Assembly (NCBI RefSeq): GCF_000420465.1 | Contig: NZ_ATUZ01000015.1 | Coordinates: forward strand, 248,001-312,000 | Direction of reading: 5' to 3' | Source of the DNA: Desulfovibrio desulfuricans DSM 642 | GTDB lineage: Bacteria > Desulfobacterota > Desulfovibrionia > Desulfovibrionales > Desulfovibrionaceae | DNA: 64,000 bases | Shown: piece after piece, positions 49 to 12,812 of the stretch | How the letters are laid out: each line of letters begins with the position of its first letter | Position numbering within the stretch: the stretch's first letter is position 1 | Program-made: the position numbers and the translations under genes | The notes under the pieces: generated by a model | Told to the model about the DNA's origin: nothing | What the model saw: only the letters and a program-made list of their open reading frames with translations | The model's database searches: none

Positions 49-999
49 ATGACTGAATCACAGGCGGCTGCAACGCCCGCCGAAGCCCTCGCGCTTTTGT
101 CCCTGCCGCAGGAACACTTGTTTGCCAGGGCCACTGCGCTGCGCGAAACGGCCTTTGGGCGCGGTATTGTTTTGTGCGCCATCATCAATGCAAGAAGCGG
201 CAACTGCTCCATGGACTGCCGTTTCTGCTCCCAGAGCAGGCACAATCACACCCCCATTGAGGTTTTTCCTCTCTTGCCGGACAATGAACTGCGCGAGCGC
301 ATTCTGCATCTTGCAGCTCTGCCTGTGGCGCGCATTGGCGTTGTTACCAGCGGTTCTGCACTGAGCGGCAGCGAATTGCAGCGCCTGCGCACTGTAATTT
401 CCGGCCTGCCGGATACCGTGCGCCCGCGCGTCTGCGCTTCGCTGGGCAAACTAACGGCTGAAGATTTTGCCCTTTTGTCCGGGGCCGGGCTTACCCGGTT
501 TCACCATAATATGGAAACTTCGCAGGGCTATTACTCCAGCGTGTGCACCACGCAAACCTGGGAGCAGCGGCGCGACACTGTGCTGCGATCCAGCGAGGCG
601 GGCCTGAGCGTGTGTTCCGGCGGCCTGTTCGGCCTGGGTGAAAGCTGGGAAGACCGCGTGGATTTTGCCTTCAGCCTTAAAAAAATGGGCGTGGCCCATG
701 TGCCCATGAATTTTCTGCATCCGCACCCGGAAACGCCGCTGGCAGGGCAGAAGCCCCTTACCGCTGATGAAGCGCTGACGCTCATTGCCGTGTTCCGGCA
801 CATTTTGCCCCAGGCCACCTTGCGCATCTGCGGGGGCAGGCCTCTTGTGCTGGGCAGCCGCCAGAATGAGATTTTCGCCGCCGGTGCCAATGCCCTCATG
901 ACGGGCGATTATCTTACAACCCACGGGCAGAGCATTGCGCATGATCTTGAAATGATCGCCGCGCAAGGGCTTGAGGTTCGCTGCGATGCAAACTGCTGA
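49..999 (+). CDS. bioB: Biotin synthase BioB
   Basis: Radical-SAM enzyme that inserts sulfur into dethiobiotin to make biotin, the last step of the pathway. The 316-residue product has the CxxxCxxC cluster motif at C53, C57 and C60, for the [4Fe-4S]/SAM site. Further cysteines lie in the CASLGKL and VCSGG segments, and an arginine lies in the ICGGR segment; the family uses such residues to hold the sacrificial [2Fe-2S] cluster. The ATG at 49 is chosen because AGGG sits about 8 bases upstream; an upstream TTG at 13 would add 12 unconserved residues. The 3' end overlaps the next gene by 14 bases, so it is cotranscribed with the fused bioD-bioA gene. Length is normal for the family. Confidence 0.95.
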   Translation: MTESQAAATPAEALALLSLPQEHLFARATALRETAFGRGIVLCAIINARSGNCSMDCRFCSQSRHNHTPIEVFPLLPDNELRERILHLAALPVARIGVVTSGSALSGSELQRLRTVISGLPDTVRPRVCASLGKLTAEDFALLSGAGLTRFHHNMETSQGYYSSVCTTQTWEQRRDTVLRSSEAGLSVCSGGLFGLGESWEDRVDFAFSLKKMGVAHVPMNFLHPHPETPLAGQKPLTADEALTLIAVFRHILPQATLRICGGRPLVLGSRQNEIFAAGANALMTGDYLTTHGQSIAHDLEMIAAQGLEVRCDANC

Positions 1000-3079
1000 G
1001 GAAAAGATTGACCCACCGCTAAGGGGCCTTTTTGTAGCCGGCTCCGGCACAGATGTGGGCAAGACCGTGGTGACGGCGGCCCTGCTGCGGGCCTTGCTGC
1101 TGGCCGGGATCAACGCCCAGGCTGTAAAACCTGTGCAGACAGGTGTTGCGCCGGAGCAGGCCAATACGGCCCCTCTGGCCGATGCCCGCGTGTATGCCGC
1201 TGCCGTTGCGGGCATGCCGCAAAGCGCCGCCATGCTGCCTGCCACGGCCCTGCATTGCTTCAGCCTGCCCGCTTCGCCCCATCTGGCCGCGGCCCGCGAA
1301 GGCGCGCGCCTGACCTGCGCAGGGCTGCGCAACGACATTGTTTGCCACAGCCGTGCCAGCACCGCTGAAATGCTGCTGCTCGAGGGCGCTGGCGGCTTGC
1401 GGGTGCCGCTCAACGAGCGTGAAGACATGCTCGACCTCATGGCCACGGTGGATCTGCCCGTGCTGCTTGTGGGCGGCAATTATCTGGGTGGTCTGAACCA
1501 TATTCTGCTTTCGCTGGATGCATTGCGTCATAACGGCCTGCAACTGGCCGGAGTGGTGCTTGTCCCATCTGCCGATCCGGCAGCGGGTTGCCCCGGCGTG
1601 GATGTGGACGCCATGCTGGCCGACAACGCCGCCATGCTGCGCGAGCGGCTGGCGCAACAGGGCCTGACTGCGCCCCTTGTGGAATTGCCGCGTGTAGCGC
1701 AGCTGGATGCAGAGGGCTGGCAGACTCTGGCTCAGGGGCTTGAGCCGCTGGTGCGGCATCTGCAAGCCTCACTGGATGCTGCTTGCGGCTGCGGCGCGGA
1801 TGTTGTGCGCCGCGATCACCAGACCATCTGGCACCCCTATGCCTCGGCCATGCAGCCGCCCTTGCTCAGCACTGTGGCGCGCACCAGAGCCAACCGCATT
1901 GTGCTGGCAGACGGCAGGGAACTTGTGGACGGCATGTCTTCATGGTGGGCAGCCGTGCACGGCTACAACAATCCGCGCCTCATGGGGGCCCTGCACGCAC
2001 AGGCCGGGCGCATGCCCCATGTAATGTTTGGCGGCCTGACGCACGAACCGGCGGTCAATCTGGCCGAAAAGCTGCTGCGCCTCATGCCTGCGGGGCTTGA
2101 GCGCGTGTTTTTTGCCGATTCCGGCTCGGTGGCGGTGGAGGTGGCGCTGAAAATGGCCCTGCAATACCAGCAGGGCAGGGGCCAGACCGGTCGCAGCAAG
2201 TTTCTTACGCCGCGCGGCGGTTATCATGGGGATACCTTTGGCGCCATGTCGGTGTGCGACCCGGTTACGGGCATGCACAGCCTGTTTACGGCCATGCTGC
2301 CCCAACAGATATTTATGGAGCGGCCCGGTTGTCGTTTTGACCAGCCCTTTGACTCCGCAAGCCTTGACGATGCCCGGCGTGTTTTTGCCGAGCGCGGGCA
2401 CGAGATCGCGGCGGTGATTCTTGAACCAGTGGTGCAGGGCGCGGGCGGTATGTGGTTTTACCACCCGGACTACCTGCGCGGGCTTGCGCAACTGTGCCGC
2501 GAGGCTGGCGCGCTGCTGATATTTGATGAAATCGCCACGGGCTTTGGCCGCACTGGAAAGATGTTTGCTGCGGAATGGGCCGGTGTTTCGCCGGATATTC
2601 TGTGTTGCGGCAAGGCGCTCACGGGCGGGGTGCTCACCCTGGCTGCCACGGCCTGCACAGCCAGTGTGGCGCAGGGCATTTGCGCCGGGGGCAATGTGTT
2701 TATGCACGGCCCCACCTTTATGGCCAATGCGCTGGCCTGTGCCGTGGCCTGCGCCAGCCTTGACCTGCTGCAAGAGGGAGAATGGGCGCAGAAGGTGGCA
2801 AATCTTGAAAGCGGCCTGCGCTCAGGGCTTGCCCCCTGTGCGGAGCTGCAAGGCGTGGCTGACGTGCGCGTACTGGGCGGCATCGGCGTTGTGGAAACGT
2901 GCGAACCCGTCAATACATCCGCATTACAGGAATATTTTGTGCGGCACGGCATCTGGGTGCGGCCATTTAACCGGCTTGTTTACCTCATGCCTCCGTATGT
3001 TACCCCGGCTGAGGATGTGGCGCGGCTTTGCGCTGTGGTGGCAGGCGCCTTGGAATCAGGAGCGCATCTGCAAGGATAA
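986..3079 (+). CDS. bioDA: Fused dethiobiotin synthetase / DAPA aminotransferase (BioD-BioA)
   Basis: A single 697-residue polypeptide carries two consecutive biotin-pathway enzymes. The N-terminal part is BioD, with an ATP-binding P-loop (GSGTDVGKT, residues 19-27) and a LLEGAGGLRVP segment. From about residue 275 it is BioA, the PLP-dependent adenosylmethionine:8-amino-7-oxononanoate aminotransferase, with WHPYAS, SSWWAAVHGY, a DEIATGFGRTG segment and the likely Schiff-base lysine K543 in CCGKALTGG. BioA acts just before BioD, so the fusion could pass DAPA between sites. The ATG at 986 lies inside the end of bioB, implying translational coupling. Both halves look intact, with no frameshift. 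The domain order matches that known for the plant BIO3-BIO1 fusion. Confidence 0.93.
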   Translation: MQTAEEKIDPPLRGLFVAGSGTDVGKTVVTAALLRALLLAGINAQAVKPVQTGVAPEQANTAPLADARVYAAAVAGMPQSAAMLPATALHCFSLPASPHLAAAREGARLTCAGLRNDIVCHSRASTAEMLLLEGAGGLRVPLNEREDMLDLMATVDLPVLLVGGNYLGGLNHILLSLDALRHNGLQLAGVVLVPSADPAAGCPGVDVDAMLADNAAMLRERLAQQGLTAPLVELPRVAQLDAEGWQTLAQGLEPLVRHLQASLDAACGCGADVVRRDHQTIWHPYASAMQPPLLSTVARTRANRIVLADGRELVDGMSSWWAAVHGYNNPRLMGALHAQAGRMPHVMFGGLTHEPAVNLAEKLLRLMPAGLERVFFADSGSVAVEVALKMALQYQQGRGQTGRSKFLTPRGGYHGDTFGAMSVCDPVTGMHSLFTAMLPQQIFMERPGCRFDQPFDSASLDDARRVFAERGHEIAAVILEPVVQGAGGMWFYHPDYLRGLAQLCREAGALLIFDEIATGFGRTGKMFAAEWAGVSPDILCCGKALTGGVLTLAATACTASVAQGICAGGNVFMHGPTFMANALACAVACASLDLLQEGEWAQKVANLESGLRSGLAPCAELQGVADVRVLGGIGVVETCEPVNTSALQEYFVRHGIWVRPFNRLVYLMPPYVTPAEDVARLCAVVAGALESGAHLQG

Positions 3080-5741: not shown

Positions 5742-5752
5742 ACGAGCAATAC

Positions 5753-5800
5753 AATAAAAGCGTTATCCGGTCTGTTGGTTGGCCGGATAACGCTTTTATT
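5753..5800 (+). terminator. Strong terminator after fhs
   Basis: A perfect 18-bp inverted repeat (AATAAAAGCGTTATCCGG and its complement, 5753-5770 and 5783-5800) with a 12-base loop begins 11 bases after the fhs stop. The stem ends in CTTTTATT, so it can act as an intrinsic terminator. The flanking A and T tracts would let it work in either direction. Confidence 0.85.
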
Positions 5801-5912
5801 GCCTTTCATAAGCAAAAAAATTTTTTTCTGAAATATTTTTCCAACCTGCTCTATTCATAGTTGATAGTATTACCAAATATCAGATATGCCGGTTTTTGCC
5901 GCTTGAAAAAAA

Positions 5913-5971: not shown

Positions 5972-8026
5972 ATGGAAGTAGTGCTCAGAGGCGTGCGCGG
6001 CAGCATTGCCGTGCCAGCTCCGGCCATGTCGTTTTACGGTGGCAACACCTCTTGCGTTGAACTGCGTTCCGACAACGGGGCGCTCATCTTTTTCGATGCT
6101 GGCACCGGTCTGCGGCAGGCTGGCGAAAACCTGCCGGAAAGCGGCACCTGCCATCTTTTTATTTCGCACGGGCATACAGACCACATCCAGGGGCTGGGGT
6201 TCTTTCCGCCCCTGCATTCCCCCCGCTGGACAACCCACATCTATATTCCTGTCTGGCTTGAGGACGTGCTGGACAATCACTTTGCCCACGGCATGTTCCC
6301 CATACCATTCAGCGACTTTGCCGGAAACGTTGTGCGGCACAGCCTTGAACCCGGTGACCTGGTGCATCCCGCCGATGGCGTCGCGGTTGCGGCCATAGCG
6401 GCCAACCATCCCGGCGGCGCGCTTGCCTACAGGGTTTGCGCCGACAATGCCATTTTTGTGTACTCCGGCGATTATGAAATCACCCGCGCCCATGAAGTGC
6501 AGCAGGCGGCGCGCGAACTGCTTGAAGGCGCGGATCTGGCTGTTGTGGACAGCATGTACAGCAAGGCCAGTTATATTGAAGGCTGGGGGCATTCCCGCTG
6601 GGAAGACTGGCGTGATCTGGGCCATGCTGCCGGGTTGGGCTGTATTGTACTTTCACACCATGCGCCGGATATGAGGGACGCGCAGATAGACGCACTACAG
6701 CGCGAGGCCTTGCACAGTTGCCAGATGAGCGGGCAGCGCCTGTGCTTTGCGCGTGAGGGCATGCGGTTCAGCCTGCCCATGCCCAGGCAGCAGGCCTGTG
6801 GGGAATGCGGTCTGGTTCAGTTCAGCGACTGGCTCGACAGATTTCTGGACGACCTTTCGCAGTATCAGGACGAAAACACGCTGCTCGACCGCATACTCGC
6901 CAAATCCCGAGAGATCACGCGGGCTGATGCCGGAACCATTTTTCTTGTTGATGGGGAAGATCTGCTCTTTGCCTATACGCACAACGACAGTCTGTTTTCT
7001 GTAAACACTGCCTCAAAGTTCGCCTATTCCTCGGCGCGCCTGCCCATCAATCCCCATTCCATTGCGGGCTATGCGGCCTGCACGGGCGAAATGCTCAATA
7101 TTGTGGATGTGCGCGCCTTGCCGAAGGATTTGTCGTTTTCGTTCCGCGATGATTTTGACAATGCCACGGGATACCACACGGAATCCATGCTCGTGGTGCC
7201 TTTTCACGACCACGCGGGGCACATCTCGGGTGTGATGCAGCTCATCAACAGCCTTGATCCGCGCACGGGCAAGCCCCGCAAGTTCACGCACGACATGGAG
7301 CGGCACATACGGGTGCTGGCCCGCGAAATCGCCAATATCCTTGAACGCAGCCATCTGGTGCGGGCAAGCATCAACAGGCTTGTGCGGCTGGCCTCCGTGC
7401 ATGACCCGCTCGAAACTGGCCCCCATGCCGAGCGCGTGGGCGCCATTGCCGCAGAAATGTATCAGGTGCGGGCCAACCGCCTGTGCCTTGACCCGGACGT
7501 GACCCTGCACGTCAAAAGCCAGATACGCCTTGCCGCCATGCTGCACGACATAGGCAAGGTGGGCGTGAGCGATCTGCTGCTGAAAAAGCCGGGTAAGCTC
7601 TCTGATGAAGAAATGGCCGTCATGCGGTCGCATACGATTATTGGCTCGGGTATTCTGGAGGCAGAGGCTCAGAGCGGCGGATTCATGATCTTTGCCTGCG
7701 AGATAGCCCACCATCACCACCAGAAATGGAACGGCAAGGGCTATGCAGGCCCAAGCGACGCGGGCAGGCTGGAAGGGGAGGATATCCCCCTCGCGGCACG
7801 TATAACCGCCATTGCCGATGTGTTTGACGCGCTGGTTTCCCCGCGTTCGTACAAGGCAGCATGGCCGCACGAAAAGGCTCTTGCCCTCTTGCGCGAGGAG
7901 GCGGGCAGCCATTTTGACCCCCAGCTTGTGGAATGCCTTGAAGAAATCATGGACGTTGTCGCCAAAATCTATGAACGCTTTCCTGATGCGGAGCCGGAAC
8001 AGGCAAAACGCGATACTGCTTCATGA
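5972..8026 (+). CDS. Metallo-beta-lactamase / GAF / HD-GYP three-domain signalling protein
   Basis: A 684-residue cytoplasmic protein with no membrane segment. Residues about 1-265 form a metallo-beta-lactamase fold with HGHTDH at 66-71 and later metal-ligand candidates in YSGDYE and LSHHAPD. Residues about 285-455 look like a GAF sensor. Residues about 470-670 form an HD-GYP domain, the class of c-di-GMP phosphodiesterases, with LHDIGKVGV (HD near 525), SHTIIG, HHHQKWNGKGY (near 580) and ADVFDALV. The proline of GYP is replaced by alanine, but the metal-binding residues look intact. AGGAGG five bases upstream fixes the ATG at 5972. Its stop overlaps the adenylate cyclase start as ATGA, so c-di-GMP and cAMP functions are coupled. 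Confidence 0.88.
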   Translation: MEVVLRGVRGSIAVPAPAMSFYGGNTSCVELRSDNGALIFFDAGTGLRQAGENLPESGTCHLFISHGHTDHIQGLGFFPPLHSPRWTTHIYIPVWLEDVLDNHFAHGMFPIPFSDFAGNVVRHSLEPGDLVHPADGVAVAAIAANHPGGALAYRVCADNAIFVYSGDYEITRAHEVQQAARELLEGADLAVVDSMYSKASYIEGWGHSRWEDWRDLGHAAGLGCIVLSHHAPDMRDAQIDALQREALHSCQMSGQRLCFAREGMRFSLPMPRQQACGECGLVQFSDWLDRFLDDLSQYQDENTLLDRILAKSREITRADAGTIFLVDGEDLLFAYTHNDSLFSVNTASKFAYSSARLPINPHSIAGYAACTGEMLNIVDVRALPKDLSFSFRDDFDNATGYHTESMLVVPFHDHAGHISGVMQLINSLDPRTGKPRKFTHDMERHIRVLAREIANILERSHLVRASINRLVRLASVHDPLETGPHAERVGAIAAEMYQVRANRLCLDPDVTLHVKSQIRLAAMLHDIGKVGVSDLLLKKPGKLSDEEMAVMRSHTIIGSGILEAEAQSGGFMIFACEIAHHHHQKWNGKGYAGPSDAGRLEGEDIPLAARITAIADVFDALVSPRSYKAAWPHEKALALLREEAGSHFDPQLVECLEEIMDVVAKIYERFPDAEPEQAKRDTAS

Positions 8027-10221
8027 ACATTGCAGATGCCCTGAAACGGCTGCTACGGCAGCCGTGGCTTTTCACCGCCCTTGTGGGGCTGTGCGGGGGC
8101 CTTGCCATGCTGGCTCTGTATGTTGTGCAGCCTGTGGCACTGCAACGCCTTGATCTGAGAATTTACGATGCACTGCTGCCTCTGCGGCGGCAAAGCGAGC
8201 CTTCTCCGGTACCCCTTGTTGTCGATATAGACGAGGAATCCCTGGCCCGGTACGGGCAGTGGCCCTGGCCCCGGTATCTGGTTGCCGACCTTGTAGACAG
8301 GCTGGCGCAAAACGGCGCTGCATCCATCGGGCTGGATATCATGTTTGCAGAGCCGGACAGAACCTCGCCCGCGAGCATGCGCGAGGGGCTTTATCGAGAC
8401 AGGGGCGTGACGCTAGAAATTGTGGGCCTGCCTTCATATCTTGGGGATTTTGATACCTTGCTTGCCGCCTCCGTGCGCGCCGCGCCCGTGGTGCTGGGCG
8501 CGTTTGCCCGCTATGCGGGCGAGCCGTATTCCGGCCCCATGCCACAGCCTCCGGCCATGATAGCGCGGGGCGGCAAGGACGCCCCCCCATTCGATGCCTA
8601 TTTGCCGACAGCCCTTGGTGCAGTTTTGCCCCTGCCGCAGCTTTTTACCGAGGCCCCCGTGGGTTTTGTGAATGTGTCGCCCGATGCTGATGGCCTTGTG
8701 CGGCAGGTTCCGCTGCTCCTCAGGCTTGGCGATGCCGTTTACCCCTCGCTGGCCTTGCAGGCCCTCATGCGCGCGCTGGGAGCTGATGCCCTGCGGCTTT
8801 ACACAGGGCCGGACGGGCTTTTCAGCGTGGCGGCGGGGGAGTTCAAAATTCCGGTTTCGCGCGAGGGCTATATGCTGGTTCCCTTTCAGGGGGGGCGGCA
8901 TACCTATCGGTATATCAGCGCCGCCAAGGTGCTGGATGGCAGTGCAAAGCGGGCTGATATTGACGGTTGCATTGTTTTTGTGGGCACGTCCGCACCCGGT
9001 CTGGCCGACATCCGCGCAACGCCCTTTGACAGGGTGATGCCGGGGGTGGAGGTGCATGCGGCGGCCATAGACGCCATGATCGGCGGCAATTTTGTGCAGT
9101 CGCCATCCTGGGGGCCGGGTGCACAGGCGCTGATAATCGCCTTTGTGGCCTGCGCGGCAACGCTTGCCTTTGGCTTTGCCGGGCCGCGCGTATATGTGCC
9201 GTCCTCTCTGGCGCTGATGGGCGCTACGCTTGTGGCCTCACGCCAGCTGTTTATGGGCGGCCTCTTTCTCTCGCCCCTCTATGGTCTGCTCACCACCCTG
9301 CTGTGCGGCGGCTTGCTGCTGAGTGTGCGCTTCTGGCAGGAGGAAAAGCAGAAAATCGTTCTGCGCCGTGCGTTTTCGCGCTATGTATCGCCGGAAGTGG
9401 TCAAGCGGATCAGCAATCGGCAGGGCGATCTGCTGGCTGGCGAAAACCGTGAGCTTTCCATCCTGTTCACGGATATTCGGGGTTTTACAAGCCTTTCCGA
9501 AACGCTTTCACCGCAGGATGTGGTGCAACTGCTGAACCGTTATTTTACGCCCATGACGGCCATTGTGCGCAGTCGGCAGGGAACGCTGGACAAGTTCATC
9601 GGTGATGCGCTCATGGCCTTCTGGAACGCGCCCCTTGATGTGCCGGGCCATCCTGCGCTGGCGGTGGATGCCGCCCTGAGCATGCAGGAACAGCTTGAGG
9701 CGCTGAACGGCGAAATTGAGGCGAGCTTTGGCATACGCCTTGCGATGGGCGCGGGCATTCACACCGGTCAGGCCTATGTGGGCAACATGGGGTCGGACGA
9801 TCTCATCAACTACACCCTCATAGGCGATAATGTGAATCTTGCCTCGCGCCTTGAGGGGCTGTGCAAACGCTATGGCGCGCCTGTGGTAGTGAGCGGGGAC
9901 ACCAGGGAAGGCTGCGGGGATGCCTTTGCCTTTGTTCATCTTGACGTGCTGCGCGTGAAGGGCAAGACGAGGCCTGTCAGCATCTACTGGCCCATGAGGC
10001 AGGGTATGGATGGAATTTTTCAGGCAGCCATGCCGCAGTGGAGCGCAGCGCGCGCACTGTATGAAAAGGGGGATTTTGCCAAGGCCGCGGCTGGCTTTGC
10101 CGTGCTGACCAAAAGTTATCCCTCGATACGTCTGTTTGGTCTGTATCATGAACGCACGCTTATGCTTGCGCAGAATCCGCCTGCCCGGTGGGACGGCATC
10201 TGGACAATGGAAGGTAAGTAG
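8023..10221 (+). CDS. CHASE2-domain adenylate cyclase (class III)
   Basis: A 732-residue inner-membrane sensor. One N-terminal membrane helix (about 16-36) is followed by an extracytoplasmic CHASE2 domain (about 40-330; segments WPWPRYLVADL and GLDIMFAEPDR). Three closely spaced membrane helices come next (about 365-445), then a cytoplasmic class III cyclase domain (about 480-650). Catalytic features are complete: metal-binding aspartates in LFTDIRGFTS and DKFIGDALMAFW, and IGDNVNLASR with the transition-state Asn and Arg. The Lys/Asp pair in DKFIGD and IGDN favours ATP over GTP. A short C-terminal tail may be one TPR-like unit (ALYEKGDFAKAAAGF). It overlaps the preceding gene by 4 bases and is followed after 27 bases by the FecR-domain gene. 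Confidence 0.92.
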   Translation: MNIADALKRLLRQPWLFTALVGLCGGLAMLALYVVQPVALQRLDLRIYDALLPLRRQSEPSPVPLVVDIDEESLARYGQWPWPRYLVADLVDRLAQNGAASIGLDIMFAEPDRTSPASMREGLYRDRGVTLEIVGLPSYLGDFDTLLAASVRAAPVVLGAFARYAGEPYSGPMPQPPAMIARGGKDAPPFDAYLPTALGAVLPLPQLFTEAPVGFVNVSPDADGLVRQVPLLLRLGDAVYPSLALQALMRALGADALRLYTGPDGLFSVAAGEFKIPVSREGYMLVPFQGGRHTYRYISAAKVLDGSAKRADIDGCIVFVGTSAPGLADIRATPFDRVMPGVEVHAAAIDAMIGGNFVQSPSWGPGAQALIIAFVACAATLAFGFAGPRVYVPSSLALMGATLVASRQLFMGGLFLSPLYGLLTTLLCGGLLLSVRFWQEEKQKIVLRRAFSRYVSPEVVKRISNRQGDLLAGENRELSILFTDIRGFTSLSETLSPQDVVQLLNRYFTPMTAIVRSRQGTLDKFIGDALMAFWNAPLDVPGHPALAVDAALSMQEQLEALNGEIEASFGIRLAMGAGIHTGQAYVGNMGSDDLINYTLIGDNVNLASRLEGLCKRYGAPVVVSGDTREGCGDAFAFVHLDVLRVKGKTRPVSIYWPMRQGMDGIFQAAMPQWSAARALYEKGDFAKAAAGFAVLTKSYPSIRLFGLYHERTLMLAQNPPARWDGIWTMEGK

Positions 10222-10248
10222 AAACATCCTGTTGATGTGGGGGGAACA

Positions 10249-11304
10249 ATGATTCGTTCAATGCTGGGGCGCGGAGCTTTGGCCCTGTGCCTGACTTTGC
10301 TGGCCGGGGGCGTATGCACGGCCAAGGATGTGGGACAGGTTATTTCCTTCAAGGCAGGCGTTACTGCTCAAAGGGATGGACAGGCCGTGGCGCTGGACAT
10401 GAAAAGCGCGGTTGGGAATCAGGATACGCTGACTACAGACTCCACAGGCCGCGCGCAGATTCTTTTTGACGACGACACTACCGTGGCGCTTGGTTCCAAC
10501 ACGTCCCTGAGCCTTGAAACTGTGGTTGCAGAAGGCGCTAACCCCGCTTTCAAGGCCAGAATGGGGCAGGGCGTGGCCCGCTTTATCACGGGCAAGATTG
10601 TGGAAAAAAATCCTGATGGATTTTCAGTGGTTACGCCAGATGCTACCGTAGGCATCCGCGGCACCATCTTTGCCGTTCAGGTGGGCAACGGCACCACAAC
10701 CGTATTTGTAACCAACACCACCAAGCAGGTTTTTGTTAACGGCGTGCTGGTGCCGACAGGTTTCAAGATCACCCTGCCGCAGGGCGCGCCTACCCCCATG
10801 ACGCCAGCAGACCATAACCTGGTGTCTGGCAGCGTGGCGGCCAACAGCCCCGCCTCTGGCGCGACAGCGCAGCTGGCACCACCGTCACCCATTGCGGGGA
10901 ATCCTATTACGCCCACAACGCTGGCGCAGACGCCCATTGTATCGCAGGCGCTGGGCGAGGGCTTCCGGCAGACGGGCAACGCCAATGTGTCTGGTACGCT
11001 GACCAATGAAGTGTACTCAGGATCGTTCAGTTTTCTGGTCAATCTGACAAGCGGCGCCGTAAGCAACGGCGTCATGCAGTCTGGCAATTCGGACACGCCT
11101 ATGGCAATGACGGGCGGCAGGGGAAGCATCAGCGGCTCAAGCCTGAATGTTAGCGGATTCACGGCGGATGATTATTCCGGATCCATGAACGGCGCCGCCG
11201 CCCGCAACGCATCTGGGCTGTCTGTTTCAGGCGGCTACAAGATCACTGATAACAGTGATGGCAGCTTGAGGGAATCTGGTTCATTTTCCGGCAAGCAACG
11301 ATAG
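10249..11304 (+). CDS. Secreted FecR-domain protein with Gly/Ser-rich C-terminal barrel-like domain
   Basis: A 351-residue exported protein. A signal peptide (about 1-24, cleavage near VCTA-KD) precedes a FecR domain (about 30-150; FDDDTTVALGSNTSLSLE, TPDATVGIRGTIFAV). A Pro/Ala/Thr-rich linker follows (about 180-230). The last 115 residues are rich in Gly, Ser, Asn and Thr with alternating beta-strand pattern (YSGSFSFLVNLTSGAVSNG, GSISGSSLNVSGF, YSGSMNG, ESGSFSGKQ). That pattern resembles the small barrel of TbpB/factor-H-binding-type surface proteins. There is no lipobox. The ATG at 10249 follows a G-rich ribosome site; an earlier in-frame start would lengthen the signal peptide oddly. It lies 12 bases before a Slam-like gene, suggesting export to the cell surface. 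Confidence 0.75.
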   Translation: MIRSMLGRGALALCLTLLAGGVCTAKDVGQVISFKAGVTAQRDGQAVALDMKSAVGNQDTLTTDSTGRAQILFDDDTTVALGSNTSLSLETVVAEGANPAFKARMGQGVARFITGKIVEKNPDGFSVVTPDATVGIRGTIFAVQVGNGTTTVFVTNTTKQVFVNGVLVPTGFKITLPQGAPTPMTPADHNLVSGSVAANSPASGATAQLAPPSPIAGNPITPTTLAQTPIVSQALGEGFRQTGNANVSGTLTNEVYSGSFSFLVNLTSGAVSNGVMQSGNSDTPMAMTGGRGSISGSSLNVSGFTADDYSGSMNGAAARNASGLSVSGGYKITDNSDGSLRESGSFSGKQR

Positions 11305-11316
11305 GTTGAGCCAGCA

Positions 11317-12690
11317 ATGATACGTAATCCATTCCACCTGTTGCCCTGTTGCTGTAGGTTCGCGCTTGTGCCCCTGTGCATGCTTTTACTGGTCAGTACC
11401 GCCATCGCCGCAGATGATTCCCCCGCACTGCGCACGGCGGTGGGATCTGCCAAGGTTGATGCTGCTGCCCTCATGCAACAGGGCAAATATGCTTCCGCAT
11501 ACGACATGTACATGCGCCTGCTGCGTGAAGCGCCGGACGATGATGAAATCAACCTTAATCTGGCGCGCAGCTCCATGCGCTGCGGGCGGTACAATCAGGC
11601 TGTAATGGCCTATGAGCGCCTTACGGAAAAATATCCATCGGAGCCTGTACTCTACAGCGAACTGGCGCAGGCCTACATGGCGCTTGAAGACCGCGCCAGC
11701 GCGGAGCGAGCCATGGCAACCATGCGGTCGCTGAATCCCAATATCAGCAAGGCTGATAATGACCGACTGCTAGATTCGCTTGAAAAGCGTTACGATCATT
11801 GGCAGGTGCACGGCAAACTCCGCACTGGTCTGCTGTATGACTCCAACGCCACATTTGGCCCTTCAAGCACAACCATGGATTTGGGTACGTGGCGTGTCAG
11901 CCTGCCGGATTCGGAAGCCAAGGGCACCTTTGGCGCGTATCTTGGGGCAAACCTTGATGTGGGCTGGAAGGCCGAGCGGGATACGCCCTGGTGGATTGTG
12001 GGCGATGCGCAGGGCCTGGCGCGCGGCAATGGAGATTCATCGCTTGATGATGTGCACAGCCGCACTACAGAATGGGGCAGGGCGGCTGTGGGCCTTCGCC
12101 ATCTCACGCCCACAACCATGTTTGATCTGCGCCTTAAGAGCGAAGTTTTTGATTATCAGTGGTACCAGAATGTCACGGCATCCGGCCCGGAAGCCACATG
12201 GCTTTGGGCGGTCTCGCCGTCATGGCATCTCATTACGCGTGGTACGCTGGATTCGCGGGCATACTCCAGGGACGGCGACCGCAACGGCGCGTACTGGACA
12301 CTGGGCCAGTATGTGCGACGTTTTTTTGGCGAGAGCAACCATGAAATCATGGTCGGCTTGAGTTATGTGGGCGGCAACACGCCGGAAAAGGCCGATTACT
12401 GCTACACCGGATGGGAAGCCAGCGCCCGCCTGGTGCTCAAGCTGCCCAAGGACTTTGAACTCGCCCCCTTTGTTTCCTTTGAAAACGACTGGTACAACGG
12501 CCCGGCAACGGCACTTGAAACATCCAGCAGGCTTGACCAGAAATGGCGCACTGGCGCGGTCCTTACGTGGCACATTACCGATGCATGGTCTGTTGAAACT
12601 TCGTACCAGTATACCCACAACAATTCAGAAAGCCCGCTGTACAGATACGACCAGTCCCTTGTTTCGCTTGGTGTTGCCTGGTCGTTCTAG
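11317..12690 (+). CDS. TPR plus outer-membrane beta-barrel protein (Slam/DUF560-like)
   Basis: A 457-residue outer-membrane protein. A signal peptide (1 to about 32, ending STAIAA) is followed by about three TPR units (45-150; QQGKYASAYDMYMRLL, RCGRYNQAVMAYERL, ALEDRASAERAMATM). From about 160 to the end it alternates aromatic and polar residues as in transmembrane beta strands, starting with LRTGLLYDSNATF. It ends in phenylalanine (VAWSF), the usual signal for barrel assembly. TPRs in front of a barrel is the plan of Slam proteins, which move surface lipoproteins and related proteins across the outer membrane. A generic TPR/OMP of unknown role is the alternative. Last gene of the operon. Confidence 0.7.
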   Translation: MIRNPFHLLPCCCRFALVPLCMLLLVSTAIAADDSPALRTAVGSAKVDAAALMQQGKYASAYDMYMRLLREAPDDDEINLNLARSSMRCGRYNQAVMAYERLTEKYPSEPVLYSELAQAYMALEDRASAERAMATMRSLNPNISKADNDRLLDSLEKRYDHWQVHGKLRTGLLYDSNATFGPSSTTMDLGTWRVSLPDSEAKGTFGAYLGANLDVGWKAERDTPWWIVGDAQGLARGNGDSSLDDVHSRTTEWGRAAVGLRHLTPTTMFDLRLKSEVFDYQWYQNVTASGPEATWLWAVSPSWHLITRGTLDSRAYSRDGDRNGAYWTLGQYVRRFFGESNHEIMVGLSYVGGNTPEKADYCYTGWEASARLVLKLPKDFELAPFVSFENDWYNGPATALETSSRLDQKWRTGAVLTWHITDAWSVETSYQYTHNNSESPLYRYDQSLVSLGVAWSF

Positions 12691-12778: not shown

Positions 12779-12812
12779 AAAAAAGGGCTTGTGGGAAACC
12801 ACAAGCCCTTTT
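12779..12812. terminator. Terminator, probably bidirectional
   Basis: A perfect 14-bp stem (AAAAGGGCTTGTGG at 12781-12794, complement at 12799-12812) has a GAAA loop. It is flanked by A on the left and T on the right, so it can serve both the plus-strand signalling operon and the convergent ACT-domain gene. Confidence 0.8.

Follow-up and report, generated by a model that had tools for sequence, protein, structure and literature searches.

A Desulfovibrio operon joining a CHASE2 adenylate cyclase to a FecR protein with a cargo-like barrel and a putative T11SS-type exporter

What does a CHASE2 sensor domain recognise? A 2016 paper (PMC5192318) gave this as not known, and the question is raised again by an operon of Desulfovibrio desulfuricans DSM 642 that encodes a CHASE2 adenylate cyclase beside a FecR protein and an outer-membrane protein. 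The operon occupies 5972-12690 of the window, that is, of the whole 64,000-nucleotide stretch analysed. The original prediction described four plus-strand genes spaced by -4, 27 and 12 bases and closed by one terminator; gene calls and Pfam bore out the spacings and the domain content, and the terminator is likely the hairpin found 3' of gene 4. The features are as follows.

5752..5801, + strand: terminator-like hairpin, 19-base perfect inverted repeat (-33.9 kcal/mol, z -8.9)
5972..8026, + strand: gene 1, MBL-GAF-HD-GYP protein, probable cAMP and c-di-GMP phosphodiesterase (Pfam Lactamase_B_2, GAF and HD_5)
5972..6811, + strand: MBL domain, residues 1-280 (Lactamase_B_2, 49.3 bits)
6845..7351, + strand: GAF domain, residues 292-460 (PF01590, 47.1 bits)
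7379..7999, + strand: HD-GYP domain, residues 470-676, with GYA replacing GYP (HD_5, 88.9 bits; motifs)
8023..10221, + strand: gene 2, CHASE2 sensor with class III adenylate cyclase domain (Pfam; 4-base overlap with gene 1)
8107..9156, + strand: CHASE2 extracytoplasmic sensor domain, residues 29-378 (215.6 bits)
9448..9987, + strand: cyclase catalytic domain, residues 476-655 (Guanylate_cyc, 77 bits)
10249..11304, + strand: gene 3, FecR-domain protein of 351 aa with T11SS-cargo-like C-terminal barrel (Pfam, predicted fold; 27-base gap after gene 2)
10249..10326, + strand: signal-peptide-like N-terminus, residues 1-26 (translation read by eye)
10423..10713, + strand: FecR domain of gene 3 (PF04773, 48.5 bits; same place in a genome-wide FecR search)
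10840..10965, + strand: disordered linker, residues 198-239 (pLDDT <50; 28-60% identity in four relatives)
10978..11301, + strand: eight-strand, T11SS-cargo-like barrel, residues 244-351 (eight strands in the model)
11317..12690, + strand: gene 4, SlipAM (DUF560) outer-membrane protein of T11SS type (TPR repeats and SlipAM by Pfam; 12-base gap after gene 3)
11422..11790, + strand: TPR domain, residues 36-158, expected periplasmic (helical repeat in the model; TPR Pfam matches)
11800..12687, + strand: 14-strand outer-membrane barrel, residues 162-457 (14 long strands in the model; porin OmpG, Z 21.9)
12781..12812, + strand: hairpin 3' of gene 4, likely operon terminator (14 pairs; -25 kcal/mol, z -7.0)

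Judged from this spacing, genes 1-4 likely lie on one predicted transcript. Strong hairpins flank the operon on either side, and the upstream one separates it from a gene that by eye encodes a formate-tetrahydrofolate ligase. The downstream hairpin was absent from the output of a consensus terminator scan, which was uninformative because its 12 sites equalled the 12.0 in shuffles; a promoter scan, likewise uninformative, found no sigma-70-like promoter on the plus strand. Repeats within the operon, hairpins excepted, look chance-like. Searched for across the 3.39-Mb genome, CHASE2, the PF00211 cyclase domain, FecR and SlipAM each matched exactly once, and every match falls inside this operon. 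Matches to cNMP-binding domains number seven in the genome.

The first two genes carry the second-messenger enzymes. Gene 1 starts at an ATG preceded by AGGAGG, and the motifs HxHxDH, HDIGK and HHHHQKWNGKGYA were found in its product. The top PDB sequence match of its MBL domain was Apyc1 (7u2s, E 5e-4), and the Campylobacterales counterpart of gene 1 matches PDEase_II at 38.1 bits (cut-off 23.7). Judged from such sequence matches and motifs, phosphodiesterase activity towards cAMP is probable for the MBL domain, and gene 1 as a whole probably removes both cAMP and c-di-GMP. The cyclase domain of gene 2 was aligned to a solved adenylate cyclase and contains the motifs DIRGFT, DKFIGD and DNVNLASR.

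The outer-membrane protein was characterised from its Pfam matches and predicted fold. T11SS outer-membrane proteins have a 14-strand barrel, as do OmpG and CymA, while BcsC has 16 strands. The SlipAM match of gene 4 scored 25.3 bits (cut-off 22) and was partial, covering profile positions 108-288; the profile is almost complete in the orthologues of genomes G028 (37.0 bits) and G015 (22.2 bits) and in Campylobacterales, and Pfam did not recognise SlipAM in those of G029 and G131. The AlphaFold2 model (pLDDT 85.1) folds like OmpG and TPR proteins, and the best VIA matches were OmpG and CymA; Slam structures are not among the fold matches listed, an absence that carries no weight. As modelled, gene 4 is built like a T11SS (Slam/SlipAM) outer-membrane protein, with a putative role in export.

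Gene 3 begins with a stretch that by eye is hydrophobic and may be a signal peptide, and a canonical lipobox was not seen there by eye. The FecR region resembles in fold the PupR signalling domain (Z 16.2) and 5ix9 (Z 11.6), a retention module that anchors an antifreeze-protein adhesin to the cell surface. The start of the region also matched 5ix9 with a profile E of 6e-4, reached only when the profile was built from 14 relatives; when just the first FecR-type segment was searched against PDB sequences, nothing matched. Pfam found nothing in gene 3 besides FecR. A FecR-type anti-sigma regulator was considered and rejected, as gene 3 has no anti-sigma domain and its signal-like start is followed by FecR, where such a regulator would have a cytoplasmic anti-sigma domain and a transmembrane helix ahead of FecR. 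Pfam, applied to the four operon genes, found neither an ECF sigma factor nor a TonB receptor among them, the flanking ORFs being read by eye.

The C-terminal barrel of gene 3 matched NHBA (Z 11.8), fHbp (Z 11.5) and HphA (Z 10.5) in VIA, the range with HpuA included being Z 9.5-11.8 over 100-107 residues. This similarity is unspecific in the model, since an unrelated Legionella Dot/Icm porin scored as high as NHBA (Z 11.7), and a quinohemoprotein subunit (10.0), a designed barrel (9.6) and avidins (about 9.5) followed. Pfam returned no TbpB_B_D (PF01298) or FHBP_C (PF08794) match in the barrel (0 families at E 5), and a PDB profile search with the barrel gave chance-like matches only, none of them convincing. 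Therefore, the cargo status of gene 3 rests on fold and gene context, and we do not assign the protein to TbpB_B_D but term it cargo-like, since its predicted barrel resembles T11SS cargo barrels in fold, not in sequence. Compared with three close relatives, the FecR domain is 85-92% identical, the linker 55-60% and the barrel 53-62%, so that linker and barrel vary most. The FecR domain that the original prediction had placed in the periplasm was thus found, but because gene 4 is of SlipAM type and gene 3 ends in a cargo-like barrel, the protein may not be simply periplasmic.

The operon is conserved among Desulfovibrio relatives, and Campylobacterales have a counterpart. Homologues of gene 3 and of gene 4 occur in an identical set of 9 genomes out of 37 from the genus, and this set lies wholly within the 11 having CHASE2 (Fisher p 4.4e-7), a co-occurrence in line with the original prediction; the count omits weak, TPR-only matches to gene 4 in G001, G025, G026, G033 and G035 (E 4e-8 to 5e-4) and admits G010 through two contig-edge fragments on separate contigs. 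The FecR genes found in G005, G012 and G015 sit on contigs different from gene 4, gene 1 does not adjoin gene 2 in G012, and genes 4 and 2 of G028 are separated by a gene for a 683-aa membrane protein (L027, 6704-8755). Six of the 20 best loci apparently repeat contigs of the genus set and are not independent of it.

Across the phylum, 25 of 28 SlipAM matches were taken, the window's own and two further G246 copies being left out. A FecR gene adjoins SlipAM in 16 of these 25 loci and in 9 does not, and CHASE2 lies within the stretch in 13. FecR was counted in L176 on our own HMM only, Pfam finding nothing there, and in L179 on a Pfam match that the HMM missed; in L181 a 121-aa fragment separates SlipAM from FecR. 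In three loci picked as FecR-CHASE2 pairs (L201, L202, L206) the SlipAM HMM gave a match near FecR as well; these do not enter the 16. Genomes with SlipAM carry CHASE2 in 23 of 24 cases (Fisher 5e-5) and FecR in 23 of 24 (Fisher 6e-5). When the first 150 listed matches of each of two longer lists were compared, 40 of 150 CHASE2 genes had a FecR match at most 6 kb away, against about 0.8 expected, and 110 had none inside 6 kb among the matches listed. The FecR-CHASE2 linkage in the phylum far exceeds chance. Such pairs occur also without a SlipAM detectable by our HMM, and their outputs vary among cyclase, Ser/Thr kinase, histidine kinase and HD-GYP, as would be expected if FecR-CHASE2 is an input unit. 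In a distant relative (L174), the FecR protein encoded between the SlipAM and CHASE2-cyclase genes has a TbpB_B_D match (35.5 bits, cut-off 26), and those of L189 and L182 score just below that cut-off, at 24.7 and 23.3.

The original prediction had called the system previously undescribed. This claim fails in part, because the same four components are reported in Campylobacterota (PMC9239204, mBio 2022) and a FecR-CHASE2 operon in Burkholderia (PMC5192318); what the models suggest to be new is the identity of gene 3, FecR with a cargo-like barrel, and of gene 4, T11SS-type. The Campylobacterota cluster comprises a CHASE2 cyclase, a cAMP phosphodiesterase, a FecR and a TPR protein, all shared with the window and adjacent here; the relevant section of PMC9239204 does not term the TPR protein a T11SS-type exporter or the FecR protein a cargo. 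Its gene order differs from ours: in Campylobacterales L135 and L139, genes for GAF-HD, SlipAM, FecR and CHASE2-cyclase stand in a row, with the MBL-GAF-HD fusion complete in L135. No cargo-like C-terminus was found in the FecR proteins of these two loci (293 aa), and FecR export is therefore not universal.

The operon resembles T11SS loci (PMC8406197, PMC12282271) in that a TPR-bearing SlipAM protein is encoded beside a protein ending in an eight-strand barrel. It differs in pairing SlipAM with a CHASE2 cyclase, in the missing TbpB_B_D sequence match and in the FecR effector domain, which lies outside the ten cargo architectures given in PMC12282271; the main texts of both papers mention none of FecR, CHASE2, adenylate or Desulfovibrio, and no open-licence PMC paper was found that joins FecR with surface lipoprotein assembly modifier or DUF560. 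In Burkholderia BiofilmReg (PMC5192318), a FecR protein gene sits beside a CHASE2 receptor and operon insertion abolishes biofilm. That system has a histidine kinase, a response regulator and LysM-FecR but no SlipAM exporter, whereas LysM, kinase and receiver domains are absent by Pfam from the four genes here. In S. meliloti, the CyaD1/CyaD2/CyaK-NsrA-Clr pathway (PMC13001267, PMC5498481) likewise combines an outer-membrane barrel, CHASE2 cyclases and an outside signal: a plant protein sensed via the barrel NsrA raises cAMP from the cyclases (PMC13001267), and Clr, a regulator that depends on cAMP, has the FecR protein SMc02177 among its targets. LapA-type RTX adhesins have a periplasmic retention module (PMC13090378), which the partial 5ix9 match of gene 3 brings to mind; however, gene 3 is much smaller, and among the four genes there is none for type 1 secretion and none resembling LapG/LapD.

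The order of the genes, their domains and active-site motifs, the folds predicted for the products and the conserved linkage come out of the analysis directly; export of gene 3 by gene 4, a contact between FecR and CHASE2, the substrates of both enzymes and the direction of signalling are inferred. We give an even chance to a trans-envelope sensor: CHASE2 would read a FecR protein that is exported or tethered and convert the reading into cAMP, and the NsrA pathway of S. meliloti would be a precedent. Gene 4, with its TPR domain and 14-strand SlipAM barrel, would be a T11SS-type outer-membrane exporter, and gene 3 its dedicated cargo, whose C-terminal barrel would pass to or through the exporter. 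The conserved FecR domain, across the flexible linker from the barrel, would be the part read by the cell through a periplasmic contact with CHASE2 of gene 2; cAMP output of the cyclase would in this way be set by the state of gene 3 in export or at the surface. Gene 1 would terminate the signal, with MBL removing cAMP, HD-GYP lowering c-di-GMP and GAF gating. Counting against this reading are the missing sequence match and unspecific fold of the barrel, the Campylobacterales FecR proteins that show no such C-terminus, the SlipAM loci lacking an adjacent FecR gene or a nearby CHASE2, the orthologues in which Pfam sees no SlipAM, and the relatives whose FecR genes lie on contigs apart from gene 4.

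A reading that goes further, a T11SS-coupled export-state sensor with FecR-CHASE2 as a general envelope-sensing module, is tentative. Gene 3 would then span the outer membrane like a LapA-type adhesin: the variable barrel would lie outside, the linker would keep the retention-like FecR domain in the periplasm, and CHASE2 would detect there if the barrel has been let out, is occupied or is being pulled. As a general module, the FecR-CHASE2 reader might combine with swappable anchors (T11SS barrel, LysM, TPR) and swappable outputs (cAMP, c-di-GMP phosphodiesterase, Ser/Thr kinase, histidine kinase).

The alternative that survives best, though we consider it unlikely, makes gene 3 an adhesin or binding protein that is exported, and leaves genes 1 and 2 only the task of deciding, through cAMP and c-di-GMP levels, when this surface protein is made; CHASE2 would then sense something else. 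Consistent with it, FecR-SlipAM pairs without CHASE2 in the stretch occur in four Desulfovibrio MAG loci (L119, L121, L124, L127), the seven cNMP-binding-domain matches of this genome could pass cAMP on, and D. vulgaris has c-di-GMP-controlled adhesins (PMC13090378). However, the excess of FecR-CHASE2 linkage, its persistence without an HMM-visible SlipAM and with non-cyclase outputs, and the far better conservation of FecR than of the barrel argue against it.

Signalling of the FecA-FecR kind with no export appears rather improbable; here gene 3 would be periplasmic, and the gene 4 barrel would sense the outside and signal through TPR to FecR to CHASE2. The PupR fold match to a periplasmic domain, the Campylobacterales sets whose FecR has no cargo-like C-terminus, and the NsrA precedent all fit. 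Yet the match spans PupR 111-251, which we take, by comparison with PMC11637429, to omit the receptor-binding STN-like subdomain, and cargo-like barrels are present in gene 3 and in three distant relatives. A role of gene 4 as a porin, for polysaccharide or otherwise, like the TPR barrel BcsC, with gene 3 accessory and second messengers controlling matrix export, is very improbable: the cellulose exporter BcsC tops its Foldseek list (E 1.9e-11) and the G028 insertion is glycosyltransferase-like by eye, but SlipAM is over its cut-off, VIA favours 14-strand barrels over the 16 strands of BcsC, and the window operon holds no further gene.

Returning to the trans-envelope sensor, the operon offers a candidate for what CHASE2 recognises, a FecR protein whose gene neighbours that of the receptor and which here comes with its own likely exporter. 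If true, the cargo of type 11 secretion would serve signalling as well as nutrient binding and adhesion, and a likely identity would emerge for the Campylobacterota TPR protein; a general FecR-CHASE2 module, if true, would answer what CHASE2 senses. Such an arrangement, with an exporter and its exported protein joined to an inner-membrane sensor that makes cAMP, may be a new means by which a cell monitors its surface.

Gene calls in the window bore out the four plus-strand genes and the spacings of -4, 27 and 12 bases claimed by the original prediction, and Pfam searches assigned their domains as follows.

5972-8026 (+), gene 1, MBL-GAF-HD-GYP protein
8023-10221 (+), gene 2, CHASE2 sensor with class III cyclase
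10249-11304 (+), gene 3, FecR-domain protein
11317-12690 (+), gene 4, TPR and barrel protein

Folding analysis placed strong hairpins on both sides of the operon. A check for the catalytic motifs typical of these families found HxHxDH and HDIGK for gene 1, where GYP is replaced by GYA, and DIRGFT, DKFIGD and DNVNLASR for gene 2. Profile searches of the genome gave one match each to CHASE2, the PF00211 cyclase, FecR and SlipAM (DUF560, the outer-membrane protein of type 11 secretion, T11SS), all within the operon, and seven cNMP-binding matches. Elsewhere in the window, a 702-aa ORF (971-3079, +), 3′ of a BioB-like ORF, appeared by eye to be a BioD (dethiobiotin synthetase)-BioA (aminotransferase) fusion.

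Homologues of genes 3 and 4 occurred in the same 9 of 37 same-genus genomes, all among the 11 with CHASE2 (Fisher 4.4e-7), a count that includes G010, known there from contig-edge fragments only, and omits five weak gene 4 matches confined to the TPR. Gene 1 adjoined gene 2 in 8 of the 9; in the exception, G012, the neighbor was another gene, by eye lysyl-tRNA synthetase. Gene order was altered in G028 and G029, and gene 4 was convergent in G005, G012 and G015, which shows that unchanged descent by itself does not explain the linkage. The detected FecR genes of the latter three genomes sit on contigs other than that of gene 4, which counts against a strict operon. The G028 locus also encodes, between genes 4 and 2, a membrane protein of 683 aa that looks by eye like a glycosyltransferase (L027 6704-8755, -).

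Scanning named genomes with gene 4 yielded 40 loci. Among the best 20 (L115-L134, six being duplicate contigs of the genus set), a FecR gene lay by gene 4 in 14 and a FecR gene's C-terminal fragment in one more, and CHASE2 was within the stretch in 11. Two Campylobacterales loci (L135, L139) carried GAF-HD, SlipAM, FecR and CHASE2-cyclase genes in one row; the MBL domain of the GAF-HD gene was detected in L135 and was not found by the HMM built here in L139, in an ORF close to the contig end. FecR-SlipAM pairs in stretches without CHASE2 were observed in Desulfovibrio MAGs (L119, L121, L124, L127, L134), two of them (L127, L134) in MAG JAITHT, a pattern that a single sensor working with more than one cargo protein might produce. 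Gene 4 homologues 45-50% identical, reflecting either transfer or binning error, were seen in L123, L129 and L133 (labelled Burkholderiaceae, Synergistaceae and Zoogloeaceae); FecR adjoined the homologue in the first two of these, and L123 also had genes 1 and 2. In proteobacterial loci L136, L138, L142-L146, L148 and L153, gene-4-like TPR-barrels are divergent from an HD-GYP protein gene, and the HMMs built here found neither FecR nor CHASE2 in these stretches.

Across 197 genomes of the phylum, CHASE2 was found in 120, FecR in 121 and SlipAM in 24. Among the matches listed, at least 40 of 150 CHASE2 matches had a FecR match within 6 kb, compared with about 0.8 expected under uniform placement. 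An adjacent FecR gene was present in 16 of 25 fetched SlipAM loci and absent in 9, and CHASE2 was in the stretch in 13. In two relatives, a gene that looks by eye like receiver-GGDEF-EAL separates the genes for SlipAM and the CHASE2 cyclase, another c-di-GMP link.

L095 7336-9009 (-), receiver-GGDEF-EAL-like gene
L096 7785-9458 (+), receiver-GGDEF-EAL-like gene

CHASE2 outputs close to FecR included cyclase, Ser/Thr kinase, histidine kinase and HD-GYP, and the FecR partner sometimes bears LysM or TPR, which suggests that FecR-CHASE2 serves as an input unit whose anchors and outputs can be swapped. FecR proteins beside CHASE2-Ser/Thr kinase receptors (L203, L205, L208) represent a variant of BiofilmReg that differs by its other kinase output; of the two scanned, LysM was over the cut-off in L205 and just under it in L203.

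SlipAM exceeded the Pfam cut-off in gene 4, marking it as a candidate exporter, and was nearly full-length in the orthologues of G028, G015 and Campylobacterales, while Pfam did not recognise it in those of G029 and G131. In the predicted structure, a TPR domain is accompanied by 14 long strands, and the best VIA fold matches are OmpG and CymA. A polysaccharide role is retained as a minor rival because BcsC ranks first in Foldseek.

In the predicted structure of gene 3, the putative cargo of this candidate exporter, a disordered linker (198-239) connects the FecR domain to eight antiparallel strands (244-351). Its C-terminal part matched NHBA (VIA Z 11.8, 106 residues, rmsd 2.9), fHbp (11.5), HphA (10.5) and HpuA (9.5). 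fHbp and HphA are named as T11SS cargo in PMC12282271. NHBA and HpuA are Slam substrates. Unrelated barrels scored alike (Legionella Dot/Icm porin 11.7, quinohemoprotein subunit 10.0, avidins ~9.5), so fold alone is weak evidence for cargo, and sequence searches (Pfam; PDB profile search) returned no cargo family for the barrel. The strongest support for gene 3 as putative cargo comes from a relative in another family of the phylum (L174). There, genes for SlipAM (64 bits) and a CHASE2 cyclase flank the gene of a FecR protein whose end matches the cargo barrel family TbpB_B_D (35.5 bits, cut-off 26); the FecR proteins of L189 and L182 reached 24.7 and 23.3 bits, under that cut-off, to the end of the profile. 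Very large FecR proteins were observed near SlipAM, those of L174 and L182 ending in a TbpB-like GIFGG(D/N)R signature.

L174 8085-10703, FecR protein of 872 aa
L182 3871-6741, FecR protein of 956 aa
L181 7868-12385, FecR protein of 1505 aa

Against three close relatives, identities were 85-92% for the gene 3 FecR domain, 55-60% for the linker and 53-62% for the barrel, and against G018 they were 69, 28 and 46%; linker and barrel were the most variable of ten compared parts in all four comparisons. This pattern would fit a surface-exposed barrel and a FecR domain that has a conserved partner, but also simple relaxed constraint.

In fold comparison, the gene 3 FecR part matched PupR residues 111-251 (Z 16.2), which we take to leave out the STN-like subdomain, described as the receptor contact in FoxR and PupR (PMC11637429). 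The start of the FecR part matched the adhesin anchoring domain 5ix9, suggesting by analogy that gene 3 would keep a retained periplasmic end like the Lap adhesins (PMC13090378). In S. meliloti, CHASE2 cyclases can take their input from an outer-membrane barrel (PMC13001267). The gene 1 MBL domain is likely a cAMP phosphodiesterase: it matched Apyc1 weakly (E 5e-4), and PDEase_II was above cut-off in the L135 counterpart. In PMC9239204, the Campylobacterota cluster enzyme is described as a phosphodiesterase able to hydrolyse cAMP.

PMC9239204 had already noted the four-component cluster of Campylobacterota and suggested a single pathway, and PMC5192318 linked a FecR-CHASE2 kinase operon to biofilm; neither text, in the parts consulted, connected FecR with T11SS. 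The main texts of two T11SS papers (PMC8406197, PMC12282271) contained no FecR or CHASE2, and no paper joining FecR with T11SS was found in the open-licence literature. The description of the system as previously undescribed holds only in part, its components having been partly known. The operon is a real, conserved unit. The proposed identities of exporter and cargo, together with the idea that CHASE2 reads FecR, are new within the reach of these searches, and they are testable.
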